DNA of 64,000 nt from NCBI RefSeq assembly GCF_001306145.1, contig NZ_LGKO01000005.1, forward strand, positions 620,001 to 684,000, in the 5' to 3' direction. This DNA is from Thermanaerothrix daxensis. GTDB taxonomy: Bacteria > Chloroflexota > Anaerolineae > Anaerolineales > Anaerolineaceae. Of this stretch, positions 1,705 to 51,206 are shown one piece after another. A program made the position numbers and the translations under genes. How positions within the stretch are numbered: the stretch's first letter is position 1; every line of letters begins with the position of its first letter. Below the pieces are notes generated by a model. It did no database searches, was not told the DNA's origin, and saw only the letters and a list, made by a program, of their open reading frames with translations.

Positions 1705-2223
1705 GTGAAAACATCATCTACTCGTTCTCCCATTAAAGCGAATAAAACAAAAGATCGCCCTTCACGTCGTATAGCCCCATGGATTTTTATCCTAGTGGGC
1801 CTGGTGTTGATGGCTTATGGTGCATGGGGCTTTTGGACCCAGAACCAGTCATCTGGGGTAGGTGGAACACTACCCGCGACCCAGGTGGCGAATATCCCCT
1901 ACCCAGAAGTTAAGCGCATTCCTCTAGAGGAAGCCAAACGCGCTTATGATGAGGGCAGTGCCGTGTTTCTGGATGTGCGACCGGCCAGTGCCTACTCAGC
2001 CGCTCACATCCCAGGTGCGCTCAATATCCCATTGAATGAGTTGCCGCAAAGGATTCGCGAGTTAGATCCGCAACGACCCATTATTACCTACTGTACTTGA
2101 CCTGCCGAAGAGTCGAGCGCCCGTGCGGCGCAATACCTCTTAGAACGGGGCTTTACCGATGTAAAGCCAATTTTGGGCGGATTCGCAGCCTGGAGCGATG
2201 CTGGATATCCGATTGAGCCCTAG
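1705..2223 (+). CDS. Membrane-anchored rhodanese-domain protein, probable selenoprotein (in-frame TGA at 2098-2100)
   Basis: Translated through the TGA, the gene encodes 172 residues: a basic N-terminus, one membrane segment (about residues 24-43), then a rhodanese domain (about 68-172). The conventional ORF stops at 2100 in the middle of the active-site loop, directly after Cys130-Thr131. The frame continues without a break for another 40 codons with clear rhodanese sequence (PAEESSARAAQYLLERGF, then LGGFAAW) to a TAG at 2221-2223. Relatives have Cys at the TGA position (YC-x-C-P pattern), and Sec-containing rhodaneses are known. A hairpin follows the TGA (see next entry). The alternatives are a nonsense mutation or a sequencing error (TGC/TGT to TGA); the preserved downstream frame argues against an old pseudogene. 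It probably acts outside or at the face of the membrane in sulfur or selenium transfer or thiol redox chemistry. Confidence 0.75.
2098..2131 (+). promoter_or_regulatory. UGA codon plus candidate bacterial SECIS hairpin
   Basis: Seventeen to thirty-one bases after the TGA lies a perfect 5-bp GC stem (GCGCC at 2117-2121 and GGCGC at 2127-2131) closed by the 5-base loop CGTGC. The loop begins about 22 bases after the TGA and has G at its second position. Bacterial SECIS elements sit just downstream of the UGA and typically carry a G early in the apical loop, so geometry and loop content fit. The stem is short and GC-rich stems arise by chance in such sequence, so this is supportive and not decisive. 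Confidence 0.5.
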
Positions 2224-3943: not shown

Positions 3944-4321
3944 ATGTCACACATTTCACGGCTCAAGACCAGGTTTGTAGAGAAGCGTTACCTGCTCGAA
4001 GCCCTGCGGGATTTGGGCTATGAGCCAGAGGAGGGGGATCTGGAAATCCACAGCGTGCGTGGAAAGCGCACGGCAGTGGAGATTCGCATTCAGCCACCCC
4101 TAAGCTATCCAATTGGCTTTCGCAAAGTCAAAGGGGCTTATGAAATTGTGGCAGATTGGTTTGGCGTGATGGGGGTTCGTCCTCGGGAGTTTAAGCAGCA
4201 ACTGGCTCAGCGCTATGCCTACCATGCAGCACGTGACCAACTTGAAGCTCAGGGTTTTACGCTGGTGGAGGAAACCAATGAGGCCGGCCAAATCCATTTG
4301 CTGTTGCGCCGGATTGGGTAA
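3944..4321 (+). CDS. DUF1257 (Ycf35-like) protein
   Basis: A 125-residue protein beginning MSHISRLKTRF, the characteristic opening of DUF1257/Ycf35 proteins (MSHFT-x-hK). It continues with LLEALRDLGYEPEEG, a central strand region, GAYEIVADWFGV, and a C-terminal stretch LEAQGFTLVEETNEAGQIHLLLR. The family occurs in cyanobacteria, plastids and scattered bacteria, and its biochemical role is unknown. It starts 21 bases after the Hsp70-like gene and 20 bases before DUF2997. DUF1257 and DUF2997 genes are commonly neighbours, so this pairing supports both assignments. Confidence 0.8.
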   Translation: MSHISRLKTRFVEKRYLLEALRDLGYEPEEGDLEIHSVRGKRTAVEIRIQPPLSYPIGFRKVKGAYEIVADWFGVMGVRPREFKQQLAQRYAYHAARDQLEAQGFTLVEETNEAGQIHLLLRRIG

Positions 4322-37314: not shown

Positions 37315-38400
37315 TCAGCAGATTCGCGGAAGCATTTCCCCGCTCAGGATCTCGAGAATGCGGTGAGTGCCCAACATCGTGCGCAAGATCACGCGCCCGG
37401 CGGGTTGGCTCTCTACGTACCCAATGCGCACGGCTTCAGCACCGTAAGGAGCACGGTGCATGGCCGCCAGCGCGGCGTCGGCTTCTTCAGGGGGGACGAT
37501 GGCGATAACTTTCCCTTCATTAGCAATGTAGAGAGGATCCAGGCCTAGCATCTCGCAGGCTGCACGAACTGCTGGCCGGATTGGGATGGCCGTTTCCTCG
37601 ATTCGAATGGCTACCTGGCTTTGCTGGGCGATTTCATTCAGCGTTGTGGCCAATCCTCCTCGGGTGGGATCGCGGAGCACGTGGGTATGAGGAGCGCTCT
37701 GTAGCAAGGCCTGGATAAGGTGATTAAGCGGGGCAACGTCGGATTGAATCTCCGTCTCAAAGCCCAATTCGCCGCGCGCACTGAGCACGGCGATCCCATG
37801 ATCGCCAATGGGTCCGGAAAGCAACACGACATCGCCGGGTTGAGCGCATGCACCTCCGAGGGGGGGCCTATCGGGTGGGATCCAACCGATGCCGGTTGTG
37901 GTGATGAACATGCCGTCCCCCTTTCCCTTTTCAACCACTTTGGTATCCCCGGCCACCAGAACCACCCCGGCCTCCTCAGCCGCGATTCGCATGGAGCGCA
38001 CAATACGTTCCAGGCTTTCCAGACTTAGACCTTCCTCCAGGATGAATCCGGCAGTGAGGTAGAGCGGGATGGCGCCGCTCATACTGACATCGTTGACGGT
38101 GCCGCATACTGCCAGGCGCCCGATATCCCCACCCGGAAAGAAAAGGGGAGAAATGACGTGTGAGTCTGTAGAAACGGCTAAATGGCCAATATCGGGTTTT
38201 CCCAGTGATAAGGGCAGATGCGCAAAGTCATTGCCAGCATTCAGATAAGGGTTGCCCAGGTGGGCCTGGAAGATGGTGCGGATCAGATCGTGCGTCATGC
38301 GTCCTCCGCTTCCATGACCCAGCACGATGCGTTCGGCATGGGTAAGGGGAAGCGGGCACTGGGGGCCTTCAAAGGCGGGCAGGTTAGTTAAGTTGGTCAT
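37315..38400 (-). CDS. hypE: [NiFe]-hydrogenase maturation protein HypE
   Basis: A 361-residue PurM-fold enzyme that dehydrates the carbamoyl group on its C-terminal Cys to a nitrile, the source of the cyanide ligands of the NiFe site. The protein has LGHGSGGRMTHDLI near the start, GDTKVVEKGKGDGMFITTTGIG in the middle, and ends in MLPRIC, with the essential terminal Cys present. The start was placed at ATG 38400-38398, where the conserved sequence begins. It is the last gene of the hyp run, 30 bp after hypD. Confidence 0.95.
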   Translation of the reverse strand: MTNLTNLPAFEGPQCPLPLTHAERIVLGHGSGGRMTHDLIRTIFQAHLGNPYLNAGNDFAHLPLSLGKPDIGHLAVSTDSHVISPLFFPGGDIGRLAVCGTVNDVSMSGAIPLYLTAGFILEEGLSLESLERIVRSMRIAAEEAGVVLVAGDTKVVEKGKGDGMFITTTGIGWIPPDRPPLGGACAQPGDVVLLSGPIGDHGIAVLSARGELGFETEIQSDVAPLNHLIQALLQSAPHTHVLRDPTRGGLATTLNEIAQQSQVAIRIEETAIPIRPAVRAACEMLGLDPLYIANEGKVIAIVPPEEADAALAAMHRAPYGAEAVRIGYVESQPAGRVILRTMLGTHRILEILSGEMLPRIC

Positions 38401-38430
38401 GCATATCCTCTCTGAATCAGGCACCTGCTT

Positions 38431-39522
38431 TTACGGATGGCTGCGTCCGTAGCGGTAGTAGGCCGCACAGGCACCCTCGGCTGAAACCATGGGGGCGCCC
38501 AGCGGGGCCTGGGGGGTACACTGGGTGCCGAAAGCCGGACATTCATGGGGCTTTTTAATGCCCTGCAAAATCTGACCGGCAATGCATAAGGGCGATTCCT
38601 GGGCATGAATGGTGCCCACGTCGAAGCGTTTTTCCGCATCGAAATCAGCCCATTCCGGGCGCAATCCCCATCCGCTCATGGGAATAAGGCCGATACCGCG
38701 CCAGTTTCGATCACAAGGTTCGAAGACCTGATCAATGATTTTTTGGGCGGCACGATTGCCCTCGCGGGTTACGGCACGGGAGTAAGCATTTTCAACCCCC
38801 ACGTGTCCTTCTTCCAACTGACGCAATGTCATCAGAATTCCCTGCATTAGATCCACAGGTTCAAAGCCAGTGACCGTCATGGGCACTTGGTACTTTGCAG
38901 CGATGGGCTCATACTCCCAATAGCCCATAACTGTGCAAACATGGCCTGCCAACAAGAAGCCTTGTACCCGGTTGGTGGGGGTACTTAGTATGGCGTGCAT
39001 GGCTGGCGGCACGCGCACCTGAGAAACCAAAAGAGAATAGTTCTTTAACCCGAGCGCCTGGGCTTGAAGCAGGCTCATGGCATTTGGGGGGGCAGTGGTT
39101 TCAAAGCCAATAGCAAAGAAAACCACCTCCTTGTCTGGATTTTCCCGGGCAATCCGAACAGCGTCCAGAGGGGAATACACTACTTGAACCCGTCCACCCG
39201 TGGCTCGAACTGCGAAGAGGTCACGTTGAGAACCGGGTACGCGCAGCATATCTCCATAGGAGCACAGGATGGTATTGGGACGGGAAGCAATGGCGATTGC
39301 CTTATCAATCAATTCCAGAGGGGTGACACACACTGGACAACCTGGCCCATGCACAAGTTCGATCTCAGGGGGCAGCAACTGATCCAGGCCATATTGCAAA
39401 ATGGCGTGCGTTTGTCCACCGCAAATCTCCATCAGCACCCATGGCCGGGTGACGCGGTGCCGAATTTCTTCTGCAAGCCGATGTACCAATTCAGCGTTGC
39501 GGAATTCTTGCCACAATTGCAT
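38431..39522 (-). CDS. hypD: [NiFe]-hydrogenase maturation protein HypD
   Basis: A 363-residue iron-sulfur protein that, with HypC, assembles the Fe(CN)2CO group. The conserved stretches are [25 protein letters not shown] (thiol redox pair), [18 protein letters not shown] and the C-terminal cluster region [23 protein letters not shown]. All expected Cys positions are visible. It follows hypC by 18 bp. Confidence 0.95.
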
Positions 39523-39540
39523 GGCAGGCTCCTGAGCAAA

Positions 39541-39786
39541 TCACACTGCGCTATTCTCGTCCAGAGCACCCATCTCACGCAGTAATTGCAGGGTCTCCAG
39601 AGCCTCGGCCTCACTCAGCCGGTTCAAAGCAAAGCCGGCATGGACGATGATGTAATCACCTTCTTCGACCTCTGGTAGTGTTTCAATGCAGGCTTCACGG
39701 TAAACCCCGCCAAAGTCCACCTTTGCCATTCGCAAGCCGGCTTGCTGATAAATGGTCACGATCTTGCCGGGAACACCCAAGCACAT
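39541..39786 (-). CDS. hypC: [NiFe]-hydrogenase maturation chaperone HypC
   Basis: An 81-residue OB-fold chaperone starting MCLGVPGKIV; the Cys after the initiator Met, needed for iron-complex transfer to the hydrogenase large subunit, is present. VDFGGVYREACIETLPEVEEGDYIIVHAGFAL completes the family profile. It lies 25 bp after hypF and 18 bp before hypD. Confidence 0.95.
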   Translation of the reverse strand: MCLGVPGKIVTIYQQAGLRMAKVDFGGVYREACIETLPEVEEGDYIIVHAGFALNRLSEAEALETLQLLREMGALDENSAV

Positions 39787-39811
39787 AATTATCCTCCATC
39801 AATAAATAGAG

Positions 39812-42124
39812 CTAAAACCCAGTTGAGTGTGGATTAACTTTGATCCACGAGGCTCCAATCATTGCCTGACCCAGCGCCAGCCCGCCATCATTGGGGGGGA
39901 CCTGGAGGTGAATGAAAACCTGAAATCCTTTTTGTTCCAGAGCGCGCATGGTGTGTCGCAGTAAGACTTGATTCTGCCACACTCCGCCGCTGAGCACAAC
40001 CCGGTTAAGCCCTTTGGCCTGACGGATCTGTTCGGCTACATCCACACACAGATTGACAATACTATTATGAAAACGAGCAGCTATGCGAGGAGACGGAGTG
40101 CCCCGCCGTAAATCATCCAGAATGGCTTCCCAAAAGGGGCGGAGCAGGATGGTGGGTGGTTCAACAGGCAAGGGGTAGACCCCTTTTTCATCTTCATCAA
40201 CCAGGCTTTCTAGTTCCATGGCGGCTTGCGCCTCATAATTGGCTTCGGCACGGATGCCAATGAGGGCGGCGACGGCATCGAACAGACGCCCCATGCTTGA
40301 GGTTAGGGGAGAATTGATTTTCCTTTCCAACATGCTGCGGAGCAGAGTGCGCTCCTCAGGGCAAAGAGCTTTCACTGGGGGCAGATCCTCATCCCAGGGC
40401 AGTTTGCATGCCCAGAGGTGTGCGAGGGCCATGCGCGCCACCTGATGCACAGCCCGATCGCCCCCAGGCAGGGGCACAGGCGTGAGATGGGCATAGCGAT
40501 GATACCCTCCGTAGGTGCCAATCAGAACCTCGCCTCCCCAGATGCTGCCGTCGGTTCCGTAACCAGTGCCATCAAAAATCAGCCCGATTACTGGTTCGGG
40601 ATCTTTGATGCCGTTATCTGCCAGGCAGGCGGCCAGGTGAGCGTGGTGGTGCTGCACCAGGAGAAGGGGGATGTTCTCCGCGCGAGCCCGTTCCTGAGCA
40701 TAGTGGGTGGCGAGGTAGTCGGGATGCAAATCCGCCACTATCCATTCTGGTCGGGTGCGGAAAAGCCTCTCGTAATGCTGGATGCCCTCCTCAAAGGCTT
40801 GAAAGGTTTCGTAGTTTTGCAAATCGCCAATGTGGTGGCTTAGAAAGGCATAGGTTCCGCGTGTCAGGCAGAAGGTGTTTTTCAGTTCGCCGCCAGTGGC
40901 CAGGATGGGAGGCACTTCCTGAGGCAACCGGATGGGGTCCGGGGCATAACCCCGCGCGCGGCGCAGCGGATAAGGGCGGTGGTTGAAGGACCGTATTACT
41001 GAGTCGTCCACCCGGGTGTGGATGGGACGATTATGGATCAGAAAGCCATCTGCCAGGCGTGAAAGGCGCTCTAAAGCCTCTTTATCCCGATAGGCAATTG
41101 GCTCTTCGCTCAAATTTCCACTGGTCATTACCAAGGCTTCGGGGAAGCCAGGTGCGGGTTCCAAGAGCAGAAGGTGTAGGGGTGTGTAGGGAAGCATGAA
41201 GCCCAGGGTGCGTTGTCCCGGTGCCACTTCACTGGCTATGAGGGAGGTCGGTATGCGTTCCAGCAGTACGATGGGGTGCTGGGGGGCGGTCAGCAGGTTT
41301 TGTTCGGATTCGCTTACCCTGGCATGGCGGGCGATGATTGAAAGGTCAAAGGCCATTAAGGCAAAGGGCTTGTCACTCCTTTGTTTCCGGCGACGCAATT
41401 CGCGCACACTCTCCGGACGAGTGGCGTCGCAAGCCAGGTGGTACCCCCCCAGCCCCTTGATAGCTAGAATGCGCCCTTCAGCCAGCCAGGTTCGTGCCAG
41501 TTGAAGGGCTGCTTCTCGCTCTGCAACTACCTTGCCCTCAGGGGTGAGGAATTGGAGGTGCGGGCCGCATTCCGGACAGGCAATGGGTTGGGCGTGGAAG
41601 CGCCGGTTGGTGGGGTCGTGGTATTCGGCAGAACAGGCCGGGCAGAGGGGAAATTCGGCCATGGTGGTGTTGGGCCGGTCATAGGGAATGGTGCGGATGA
41701 TTGTGAAGCGAGGGCCACAGTTCGTACAGTTGATAAAAGGGTACCGGTAGCGCCGATTTTTAGGATCGAATAACTCTTGTCGGCATTCTGGGCAGATGGC
41801 CACATCCGGGGAGACGGGGAGGAATTCTTCCGCGTTTGCCTGGCTTTCAATGATTTGGAAACTCGTCCAGTGATTAGTAGAACTGGGAAATACCTCAAAC
41901 GAATCGATCCGGGCCAGGGGAGGTGCTTGGGTTTGCAAATCAGCAACGAAAGATTGCAGAGCCCGCGGATCACCGCAAACTTCGATTTCTACGCCGGCCG
42001 CGGTATTGCGTACCCACCCGTTAAGATGATGGCGGGTGGCCAGAGTGTAAACGAATGGGCGAAACCCTACCCCTTGAACAATGCCGCGGATGCGTATATA
42101 CAGTCCTTGGGACGAAGGTTTCAT
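39812..42124 (-). CDS. hypF: Carbamoyltransferase HypF
   Basis: A 770-residue multidomain protein that makes the carbamoyl group for HypE. Domains in order are acylphosphatase (IRGIVQGVGFRPFVYTLA, residues about 8-95), two zinc-finger-like Cys pairs (CPECRQELFDP, INCTNCGPRF, CPACSAEYHD, ACPECGPH), the YrdC-like nucleotide domain (about 200-385), and the Kae1-like carbamoyltransferase with VQHHHAHLAACLADNG and LIFDGTGYGTDG. Length is normal. Its start overlaps the hypB stop by 4 bp. Confidence 0.95.
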   Translation of the reverse strand: MKPSSQGLYIRIRGIVQGVGFRPFVYTLATRHHLNGWVRNTAAGVEIEVCGDPRALQSFVADLQTQAPPLARIDSFEVFPSSTNHWTSFQIIESQANAEEFLPVSPDVAICPECRQELFDPKNRRYRYPFINCTNCGPRFTIIRTIPYDRPNTTMAEFPLCPACSAEYHDPTNRRFHAQPIACPECGPHLQFLTPEGKVVAEREAALQLARTWLAEGRILAIKGLGGYHLACDATRPESVRELRRRKQRSDKPFALMAFDLSIIARHARVSESEQNLLTAPQHPIVLLERIPTSLIASEVAPGQRTLGFMLPYTPLHLLLLEPAPGFPEALVMTSGNLSEEPIAYRDKEALERLSRLADGFLIHNRPIHTRVDDSVIRSFNHRPYPLRRARGYAPDPIRLPQEVPPILATGGELKNTFCLTRGTYAFLSHHIGDLQNYETFQAFEEGIQHYERLFRTRPEWIVADLHPDYLATHYAQERARAENIPLLLVQHHHAHLAACLADNGIKDPEPVIGLIFDGTGYGTDGSIWGGEVLIGTYGGYHRYAHLTPVPLPGGDRAVHQVARMALAHLWACKLPWDEDLPPVKALCPEERTLLRSMLERKINSPLTSSMGRLFDAVAALIGIRAEANYEAQAAMELESLVDEDEKGVYPLPVEPPTILLRPFWEAILDDLRRGTPSPRIAARFHNSIVNLCVDVAEQIRQAKGLNRVVLSGGVWQNQVLLRHTMRALEQKGFQVFIHLQVPPNDGGLALGQAMIGASWIKVNPHSTGF

Positions 42125-48431: not shown

Positions 48432-51206
48432 TCATTCCGAATAGGCCTCAACCCTGACCGCGGCAACCTTGAATTCGGGAATTTTGGAAATTGGATCCAA
48501 TGCCGCGAGGGTCAATTCATTGACTGAGGCTTCGGGGAAGTGGAAGTTTCCGTAAATGAGGCCTGGAGGTACCCGTTCGGTGATCCAGGCTTCTGCGATG
48601 ATGCTCCCCCGGCGCGATGAGACCCTTACCATACGCTTGCCGTTTAGACCAATGCGTTGAGCATCTTCGGGATTGATTTCGATCAACGGTCGGTCATAGA
48701 CTTTCATCAAACCTTTAGAGCGGCGCGTCATTTCCCCACCATGCCAGTGGTAGAGGACACGTCCGGTGGTCAACACCATGGGGTAAGTTCTATCGGGTTG
48801 TTCGGCTGGCGGGACGTGCACGGTGGGGTGGAATTTACCCTTCCCACGGGTAAACCGTCCTACATGCAGAATGGGGGTGCCGGGATGATCCTTGCTTCGC
48901 ACTGGCCACTGCAGGCTTTCACCCACTTCCAATCGGGCGTGAGAGATCCCTGCATAAATCGGCGTCAGCGCTGCAATTTCATCCATGATTTGGGCTGTGT
49001 TGGTGTAGTTCCATTTGCCATAGGGGGCCTCGGGGTTGACCTGGCGGTTCCCCTGACCAAGGATGCGTTGTGCCAGATCCTGGATGATCATCCAATCGGG
49101 GCGAGCCTCCCCTAAGGGTTGGATGGCCTGGCGAACGCGTTGGACACGTCGCTCGGTGTTGGTGAAGGTCCCATCTTTCTCAGCGAATGAGACCCCCGGC
49201 AGCAAAACATCGGCATAAGCCGAGGTCTCAGAGGGGAAAATTTCCTGCAGAGCGAGGAAGTCCAGCGTTTGCAGGCAATGCCTCACATGATTGGAGTCCG
49301 GATCGCTCATGACCGGGTTTTCACCCAAAATGTACATCGCCTTGATTTTGCCTTCACCCGCCGCCGGGATCATCTCGGTCACGGTCAACCCCACTTTATC
49401 CGGGAGAGCAACACCCCAAGCCTGTTCGAATTTCAGGCGGGCCTCTTCGGTTGTGACGCGCTGGTAGCCCGGATACACATCCGGCAAGCCGCCCATGTCG
49501 CAAGCACCTTGTACGTTATTCTGTCCGCGCAAGGGGTTAACTCCACCGCCGGGAACGCCCATGTTCCCCAACAGCATTTGCAGGTTGGCCAGCGTGAGCA
49601 CGTTCTGCACGCCGACAATGTGCTGGGTGATACCCATGGCCCAAATGACGGCCATTGGGCGATTCTTCCCCATAATCTCAGCAGCCTGATAAAGTCGCTC
49701 GACCGGCACCCCTGTGATGGCAGACACCTTTTCAGGGGTATAGTCCTGCAAATTTTCAAGGAAGGCTTCGTAATTTTCTGTTCGCTCGGCTATGAATGCC
49801 TCGTCTTGCCACCCGTTTTGAACAATAATGTGCATCAGCCCATTGAGCAGGGCGATATCCGTTCCTGGCCGTTGTTGCAGATGGAGGGTTGCAAATTCGG
49901 TGATGTCAATCTTGCGGGGGTCGGCTACGATCAGTTTGGCTCCGCGCTTCAGCACTGCCTGGCGAATCATGGCCCCGAATACGGGGTGCTGTTCAGTCGT
50001 ATTGGAGCCAATTATGAAGATAACCGCGGCTTTCTCAGCCACATCTTTCATGGAGTTGCTCATCGCACCTGAACCGTATGCCAGTGCCAGACCCGCCACT
50101 GTGCTGGAGTGGCATAAGCGCGCACAATGATCAATGTTGTTGGTGCCGATCACCTGCCGTGCCAGTTTATTCATCAGGTAATTTTCTTCGTTAGTGCATT
50201 TTGCCGAGGTCAGGATGCCGACGCTATCTGGCCCATAGGTATCACGTGCTTCAACCAGTTTTCTGGCTACAATCTCCAGCGCAGTGTCCCAGTCCACCTC
50301 TACCCAGGGGCCACGCTCTCCGTTAGCCGGGCGTTTCTCGCCTTTGAGTAAGTACTCGCGCACCCGAGGTTTGAGCAGTCGGTCTGGATGATGTATATAG
50401 TCGTATCCGTAGCGTCCTTTGACGCACAAATGCATGCCGTTAACGGGGGCCTGAGGATTAGAGGTGACACGCAGGATACGATTCGTTTTGGTGTTGACCT
50501 GAAAGTCAAACTGGCAACCCACTCCACAATAGGAGCAAGTGGTTGTCACCACTTTATCGGGAGCGCCTGCGCCAACCGAGGGCTTGTTATCCAGCGCACC
50601 GGTGGGGCAGTAGGCGACACATGCCCCACAGGACTCGCAGCGGGCTTCAAGCATGGTTTCGTCCATGCCAGCCACGATACGGGTATCGTAGCCTCGCTCG
50701 GCCAGCCCCCATACAAAACGTCCCTGCACCTCGGCACAGGCGCGAATACAGCGCCCGCACAGGATGCACTTGTTCAAATCTACCCAGACAAAGGGATTGG
50801 GGTCACTGTTGATGGAATAACGGGGGGCTTTGGCCATGGCCTCGTAAGGATCCAACCCATAAACACGCGCCCACTGCTCTAATTCATTGGGCCGTCCATC
50901 ATTGGCCGCATAACCAGCGTCGTGGTAAGTAGAGAGCAGGAGTTGCAAAATGGTGCGTCGCGATTCACGCAGTGTGGGGGATTCCGTGGTTACCTCCATC
51001 CCCTCGCTGACCGGTAATGTGCACGATGCCAACGGGGTGCGAGCCCCCTTAACCTCAACAACGCACAAACGGCACCCACCGTGTGGGCTAAGGTCTTTGT
51101 GATAGCACAGGGTGGGGATGGTGATACCGGCTTGAGCGGCGGCTTCCAATACCGTCATGCCTTCAGGTACCTCTATTTTCTTCCCATCAATCGTAACAGT
51201 AACCAT
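48432..51206 (-). CDS. fdhA: NAD-linked formate dehydrogenase catalytic subunit, Cys form
   Basis: A 924-residue Mo/W-bis-MGD enzyme interconverting formate and CO2. The N-terminus has a [2Fe-2S] domain (CYHKDLSPHGGCRLC), then a 2x[4Fe-4S] domain (CILCGRCIRAC, CESCGACVAYCP), a [4Fe-4S] (CSYCGVGC), and the catalytic domain. The active site is DHCARLCHSSTVAGL, with Cys365 (codon TGC) where selenoenzymes have Sec, followed by the conserved His. The usual His-Cys3 cluster between the two ferredoxin-type domains is absent: that segment reads STYHDAGYAANDGRPNELE. It lies between the formate channel and the hydrogenase subunits. Confidence 0.92.
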   Translation of the reverse strand: MVTVTIDGKKIEVPEGMTVLEAAAQAGITIPTLCYHKDLSPHGGCRLCVVEVKGARTPLASCTLPVSEGMEVTTESPTLRESRRTILQLLLSTYHDAGYAANDGRPNELEQWARVYGLDPYEAMAKAPRYSINSDPNPFVWVDLNKCILCGRCIRACAEVQGRFVWGLAERGYDTRIVAGMDETMLEARCESCGACVAYCPTGALDNKPSVGAGAPDKVVTTTCSYCGVGCQFDFQVNTKTNRILRVTSNPQAPVNGMHLCVKGRYGYDYIHHPDRLLKPRVREYLLKGEKRPANGERGPWVEVDWDTALEIVARKLVEARDTYGPDSVGILTSAKCTNEENYLMNKLARQVIGTNNIDHCARLCHSSTVAGLALAYGSGAMSNSMKDVAEKAAVIFIIGSNTTEQHPVFGAMIRQAVLKRGAKLIVADPRKIDITEFATLHLQQRPGTDIALLNGLMHIIVQNGWQDEAFIAERTENYEAFLENLQDYTPEKVSAITGVPVERLYQAAEIMGKNRPMAVIWAMGITQHIVGVQNVLTLANLQMLLGNMGVPGGGVNPLRGQNNVQGACDMGGLPDVYPGYQRVTTEEARLKFEQAWGVALPDKVGLTVTEMIPAAGEGKIKAMYILGENPVMSDPDSNHVRHCLQTLDFLALQEIFPSETSAYADVLLPGVSFAEKDGTFTNTERRVQRVRQAIQPLGEARPDWMIIQDLAQRILGQGNRQVNPEAPYGKWNYTNTAQIMDEIAALTPIYAGISHARLEVGESLQWPVRSKDHPGTPILHVGRFTRGKGKFHPTVHVPPAEQPDRTYPMVLTTGRVLYHWHGGEMTRRSKGLMKVYDRPLIEINPEDAQRIGLNGKRMVRVSSRRGSIIAEAWITERVPPGLIYGNFHFPEASVNELTLAALDPISKIPEFKVAAVRVEAYSE

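Follow-up and report, generated by a model that had tools for sequence, protein, structure and literature searches.

A very probable selenocysteine-containing rhodanese with a predicted membrane anchor in Thermanaerothrix daxensis

The window referred to below is the whole 64,000-nucleotide stretch of the Thermanaerothrix daxensis genome that was analyzed (contig NZ_LGKO01000005.1, positions 620,001 to 684,000), and all positions are those of the window. Near its start, on the forward strand, positions 1705–2223 hold a gene for a rhodanese-like protein of 172 residues in which codon 132 is a TGA, very probably read as selenocysteine (Sec). The GTG start at 1705, which is aligned with an ATG in the homologue from the same genus (L022), a TGT codon at 2092–2094, the TGA at 2098–2100 and the TAG stop at 2221–2223 share one frame, with 40 open codons between the TGA and the TAG. 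The letters around the TGA are TAC TGT ACT TGA CCT GCC GAA. The TGT codon specifies Cys130, which aligns with the usual catalytic cysteine of rhodaneses. The active-site loop thus reads C130-T-U132-P, with the putative Sec two residues past the canonical catalytic position.

The gene is preceded on the same strand by an open reading frame (ORF) for an aminoacyl-tRNA editing domain protein (PF04073, 1156–1662) and followed by one for an Hsp70-like protein (PF00012, 2327–3922). Further upstream, also on the plus strand, is a radical SAM protein with a C-terminal helix-hairpin-helix (40–1155). The PF04073 neighbor is also found upstream of the rhodanese gene in locus L028, and the Hsp70 neighbor is shared with the same-genus locus L022. 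We do not claim a conserved operon, since ten flanking ORFs scanned at homologous loci (L022, L023, L025, L027, L028, L032, L036 and L044) are mixed in function: MFS, ketoacyl synthase, P-type ATPase, SurE, FeoB-like, Hsp70 (L022) and PF04073 (L028). An MFS gene lies downstream in L023 and upstream in L025, L032 and L036; the upstream cases are possibly a shared context and, apart from the same-genus and PF04073 neighbors, nothing else recurs.

TGA is an ordinary stop codon in this DNA, as the preliminary description had stated: it terminates 19 of the 50 ORFs of the window (at least 150 residues, greedy choice), so general recoding is absent. Five more TGA continuations in the window passed a codon-usage filter as candidates for other Sec genes, and were rejected as none is selenoprotein-like. 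By eye, four of the five overlap or enter a chosen gene, and the fifth, past 3922, enters the ORF at 3944–4321. Two other loci were noticed on the minus strand of the window. One is a hydrogenase maturation cluster (37315–42124) with HypD, HypC, HypF and an AIR-synthase-related protein, which we take to be HypE by its position. The other encodes a formate-dehydrogenase-like molybdopterin oxidoreductase (48432–51206) with a cysteine (NIDHCARLCHSS) at the site where E. coli formate dehydrogenase has Sec. The window thus seems to pair a Cys formate dehydrogenase with a Sec rhodanese.

The TGA splits a Pfam rhodanese domain (PF00581), and reading through it restores residues 75–165 (positions 1927–2199, E-value 5e-20); the frame, said earlier to stay open for 40 codons of rhodanese sequence, does so. 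The rhodanese domain follows a single predicted N-terminal transmembrane helix, residues 24–49 (positions 1774–1851), with a K/R-rich N-terminus ahead of it. The best 19-residue hydropathy average of the protein is 1.99, and there are eight K/R in residues 1–25 vs two in residues 47–71. An AlphaFold2 model (37-row alignment, cysteine in place of Sec) has a mean pLDDT of 85.5, contains the helix at 24–49, and predicts the rhodanese domain well, with 10-residue block means of 87–98 from residue 71 onward. The top PDB matches, by fold and by sequence, are rhodanese-domain proteins; they include 3tp9, 6mxv, 3ilm and GlpE (1gmx). A HMMER alignment to the 3tp9 rhodanese domain shows two extra residues in the active-site loop of the window protein.

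In all 36 single-domain homologues, whose N-termini were read from the upstream stop codon without a fixed start, a hydrophobic helix precedes the domain, with more K/R on its N-terminal side than on its C-terminal side. By the excess of K/R before the helix, the rhodanese domain would be placed outside the cytoplasm. We consider a one-helix anchor with an extracytoplasmic domain probable, at roughly three chances in four.

The in-frame TGA was then compared across 101 genomes, consisting of the organism's own, one from the same genus, and the remainder from the same family or order. A protein search found homologues with exactly one in-frame TGA in at least 37 places in at least 29 of these genomes (own included). 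The TGA falls on the identical residue of the YCT-U motif in all 37 listed places, and unrelated stops were not seen among them. The 37-row alignment is constant at Y129, C130, T131 and U132 (shown as C) and, past the TGA, at E135, S138, A139, A142, G158 and P169; Cys130 gives way to TGA in six distant relatives. The highest listed count per genome is three copies, in genomes G058 and G071. Judging by these sequences, a membrane-anchored, putatively Sec-containing rhodanese group recurs among the relatives. A Cys rhodanese of the usual kind with a sequencing error or a fresh nonsense mutation, which the preliminary description had allowed for and which is conceivable in principle for one sequence with a hairpin that is unexceptional by itself, is effectively ruled out by a TGA kept in at least 29 genomes and by the purifying selection beyond it, leaving this reading a negligible probability.

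This selection is apparent from comparison with the same-genus copy. Of the 40 codons after the TGA, 22 are identical, 14 differ synonymously and four nonsynonymously (dN 0.051, dS 0.935), and the 85 codons before it give dN 0.084 and dS 1.018. The alike dN/dS on both sides indicates that the 3' part is protein-coding and similarly constrained. These values bear on the reading of the TGA as a true stop, with a functional 131-residue product and a relic downstream. Failure of Sec insertion would be expected to yield a 131-residue product, but the 40 constrained codons complete a Pfam domain and contain the six constant residues listed above, making this reading extremely improbable.

A hairpin with the features of a bacterial SECIS core lies downstream of the TGA, at 2117–2131 on the plus strand (stem 2117–2121/2127–2131, loop 2122–2126; GCGCC-CGUGC-GGCGC). 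It has five base pairs and a five-nucleotide loop with G at its second position, and the spacing from the UGA to the loop is 21 nt (2101–2121), so that the stem, loop, early G and distance first noted from the window sequence are all upheld. The bacterial SECIS model, as given in the legend to Fig. 2 of PMC13188914, has an apical loop of 3–9 nt, an upper stem of 4–16 bp, a G as the first or second loop letter, an N1-N2 loop pair as the usual pattern, a UGA-to-loop distance of 16–37 nt and a minimum free energy of ≤ −7.5 kcal/mol. The window hairpin agrees with this legend in loop, stem, loop G, spacing and energy; the N1-N2 loop pair is absent, both letters being C. In a 46-nt fold of locus L029, the same 15-mer hairpin is all that forms, at −9.4 kcal/mol, and the mean energy of the hairpin stretch over the 37 homologues is −9.1 kcal/mol. 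An Rfam scan of the window at the gathering threshold gave no matches. For the window sequence by itself, the local fold is unexceptional relative to shuffles (z −0.61 and −1.07, not significant), and we dropped single-sequence folding as stand-alone evidence.

The case for the hairpin is comparative. All five pairs are kept in 35 of the 37 homologues, while 1000 synonymous shuffles of the same set gave a mean of 1.4 full stems (maximum 5), or 1.5 (maximum 6) when each gene's own codons were used. A wider set of 79 Sec loci, from the relatives and the phylum, was selected by a motif demanding U: 91 loci were given, two of which (L176 and L178) had no match, and from 90 motif matches we removed ten same-stretch repeats (a locus fetched twice, or genomes sharing an identical stretch) and a single false match, antisense, in L059. 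Five pairs are formed in 76 of these 79 loci and four pairs in the other three, against a mean of 4.8 full stems (maximum 16) in 500 synonymous shuffles. Sliding the 3' arm by 1–3 positions leaves no full stem in any of the 79, and the second loop position is G in every one. Pair 5 is C-G in 71 loci and U-A in eight, mixed in none, and has switched at least six times on a protein tree built without the motif (101 columns; 88 rows, comprising the 79 Sec loci and nine of 76 Cys loci), a tree that is poorly resolved, with 35 of 85 inner branches open. When the 3' letters were re-dealt among sequences, an average of 61 of 79 full stems (maximum 65) persisted, since there is little variation at most positions of the stem. 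The covariation signal therefore rests mostly on pair 5, and the weight of the evidence lies in the synonymous control together with this pair. As a negative control, the Cys relatives form five pairs in three of 76 loci, and five pairs with the loop G in none. On these sequence comparisons, the hairpin is a conserved, covarying putative SECIS element.

The preliminary description had named selA, selB, selD and tRNA-Sec as genes to look for, and all four are present in the organism's own genome (3.01 Mb, six contigs, 97% complete), at 532.9 bits for selA, 342.6 for selB, 356.9 for selD and 76.9 for tRNA-Sec, which ARAGORN also calls as SeC with anticodon tca. The selD gene (L018:1402–2600) carries one in-frame TGA in CAG-U and is itself selenoprotein-like; thus, a second gene of this genome appears to require Sec decoding. 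These searches discriminate, as shown by 14 control genomes, of which only one passes the cut-off in the selA search and two do so in the selB search. Among the matches listed, selB is over the cut-off in 28 of the 29 genomes with the TGA gene vs 47 of the 72 others (Fisher p = 5e-4), and tRNA-Sec reaches 60 bits in 27 of 29 vs 46 of 72 (p = 0.002). We set the 60-bit line ourselves because tRNA-Ser scores near or just above the 47-bit line of the family; the tRNA-Ser genes of the organism's own genome reach 48.9 bits in the tRNA-Sec search. Two genomes hold the TGA gene and depart from the pattern: in G037 (77% complete) neither selB nor tRNA-Sec was found over threshold, and in G053 (90% complete) no good tRNA-Sec was found. 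The frequency of selB in genomes for which no TGA copy is listed, at 47 of 72, counts against the selenoprotein reading.

Cysteine at the Sec site of relatives had been part of the original proposal. This holds for 76 distant loci, where the codon is TGC in 57 and TGT in 19, and does not hold for close relatives, which have the TGA. The Cys loci were fetched by a Cys-bearing YCTCP pattern and the 79 Sec loci by the U-demanding motif, so both sets are motif-selected and neither measures frequencies. The Cys loci, mostly from Acidobacteriota, consist of 75 frames of 320–430 residues and one of 159 (L090), a single-domain Cys relative. A VTT domain was found in both long Cys frames tested (L091 and L096). 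These VTT-domain (DedA-type) proteins with a C-terminal YCTCP rhodanese share the motif with the Sec proteins, but have Cys at the Sec position, lack the full SECIS and carry another membrane domain.

The conserved TGA, the full Sec machinery and the conserved, covarying SECIS candidate agree with the original suggestion of a probable selenoprotein. From this sequence evidence, we put the probability that the UGA at 2098–2100 is decoded as Sec, and that the window gene encodes a selenoprotein, at about 0.96. The comparisons bear more directly on readthrough than on the identity of the inserted residue, which leaves a small place for a suppressor or for another amino acid at the TGA. Such a reading is highly improbable, given the ordinary use of TGA as a stop in the window, the presence of the Sec machinery with a bSECIS-type hairpin, and the cysteine at this site in distant homologues. 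In the Sec reading, SelB and tRNA-Sec would act on the hairpin, whose loop starts 21 nt downstream, with the result that the UGA is read as Sec.

Several related forms extend the family. Six relatives in six genomes (L083, L084, L087, L182, L183 and L185) have TGA at both active-site positions, a UxU arrangement with the motif YUTUP or YUAUP and the codons TGA-ACN-TGA or TGA-GCC-TGA. All six have a five-pair SECIS stem 3' of the second TGA, and selB is over the cut-off in five of the six genomes, the exception being G225 (82% complete, 590 contigs). The first active-site position has changed between C and U at least four times on the poorly resolved tree. A second form joins the rhodanese to an exchanger-type protein. 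Pfam identifies Na_H_Exchanger together with a rhodanese bearing an in-frame TGA in L059 (as two halves), L166, L169 and L172, and L167 and L171 have NCBIfam potassium/proton antiporter matches below the cut-off. In these loci, the rhodanese domain is C-terminal, the TGA is within YCTUP, and the SECIS stem is present. Fifteen rows with a long N-terminus, six of which were checked for the exchanger domain, are separated from the other labeled groups by a branch with support 87. Of 15 genomes searched for selB that carry a UxU or a long-frame form, 14 have it over the cut-off. One locus (L086) encodes a tandem rhodanese, with YCRSG in the first domain and YCTUP with the TGA in the second. High-scoring matches without a stop in a phylum family (f36) were considered as Cys orthologues and rejected, as they have GD or TD at the Cys position. 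All twelve listed (L186–L193, L195, L196, L200 and L201; 84–107 bits) have YGD in place of the active-site Cys, or YTD in L189, and by sequence are probably catalytically dead rhodanese-like proteins.

The kind of protein is already known, as the preliminary description had noted for Sec rhodaneses in general. A table in PMC13188914 gives NF041203 (rhodanese_LYCAU) the name 'Rhodanese-like domain-containing protein form 3, CxU', and a CxU Sec rhodanese is also tabulated as 'COG0607 form 2, CxU' in PMC9312934. NF041203 is the top NCBIfam match of the window protein, with which it shares the rhodanese domain and a Cys-x-Sec active-site loop (here C130-T-U132). The match scores 72.8 bits, below the curated cut-off of 115, and ten further members scanned singly score 61.8–96.0 bits. 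The window group differs from NF041203 in this score, in the YCTUP motif and in the N-terminal transmembrane anchor of its single-domain forms. A top match that falls below the cut-off marks the window protein as a divergent, membrane-anchored branch of a known kind.

Other families are more distant. The same table in PMC13188914 has Sec rhodaneses of forms 1, 2 and 4 with the motifs UxxS, UxxG and UxxG, respectively, and TsoB (NF045694) with UxxxxU; they combine a rhodanese domain with Sec, as does the window protein, but the Sec motif differs. Against the TsoB profile, the window protein scores just 23.4 bits, where the cut-off is 805. Single-domain rhodaneses of the GlpE type (NF001195/PRK00162; PDB 1gmx) resemble the window protein in fold and domain size, with a profile score of 61.6 bits vs a cut-off of 102. 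GlpE is not known to have Sec or a transmembrane anchor. The terms UxU, exchanger/antiporter, sodium and DedA were not found in the searched passages of the main text of PMC13188914, and neither UxU nor exchanger-fused Sec rhodaneses were found in the literature searched, which covered few subscription papers.

The functional role can be sketched only conditionally. The N-terminal helix would tether the rhodanese domain to the membrane, probably outside the cytoplasm, where C130 and U132 may work together as a pair, through a selenenylsulfide or through a persulfide/selenosulfide intermediate. At the cell envelope, such a pair could serve thiol-redox chemistry or the transfer of sulfane sulfur. 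We give this C130-U132 chemistry about an even chance.

An alternative that concerns the chemistry alone holds that the selenoprotein is a thiol-disulfide or peroxide redox enzyme, working through a C130-U132 selenenylsulfide, and not a sulfurtransferase. CxU resembles two-residue redox motifs, and the Sec at the first position in the six UxU relatives and the loop longer by two residues than in 3tp9 favor this alternative. The fold, on the other hand, is that of a sulfurtransferase, and the sequence fits both chemistries; we place the redox enzyme somewhat short of even odds.

Returning to the Sec rhodanese as a family, its forms could reflect the phylum-wide spread of one module with a near-fixed SECIS core, acting at the membrane as a selenium-based sensor or relay, either for redox state or for persulfide. 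We regard this as speculative and rather unlikely. The architectures in this spread would comprise the TM-anchored CxU, tandem and UxU forms and a C-terminal domain on Na+/H+-exchanger-type proteins; that the sensor may control ion exchange in the fusions is similarly doubtful.

Annotation that takes UGA as a stop would truncate genes of this kind, so the protein and its relatives are likely to be overlooked or recorded in shortened form. The UxU and exchanger-fused Sec rhodaneses would make the family of higher interest if confirmed. A natural series of CxC, CxU and UxU forms would allow a direct test of the contribution of selenium to rhodanese chemistry.
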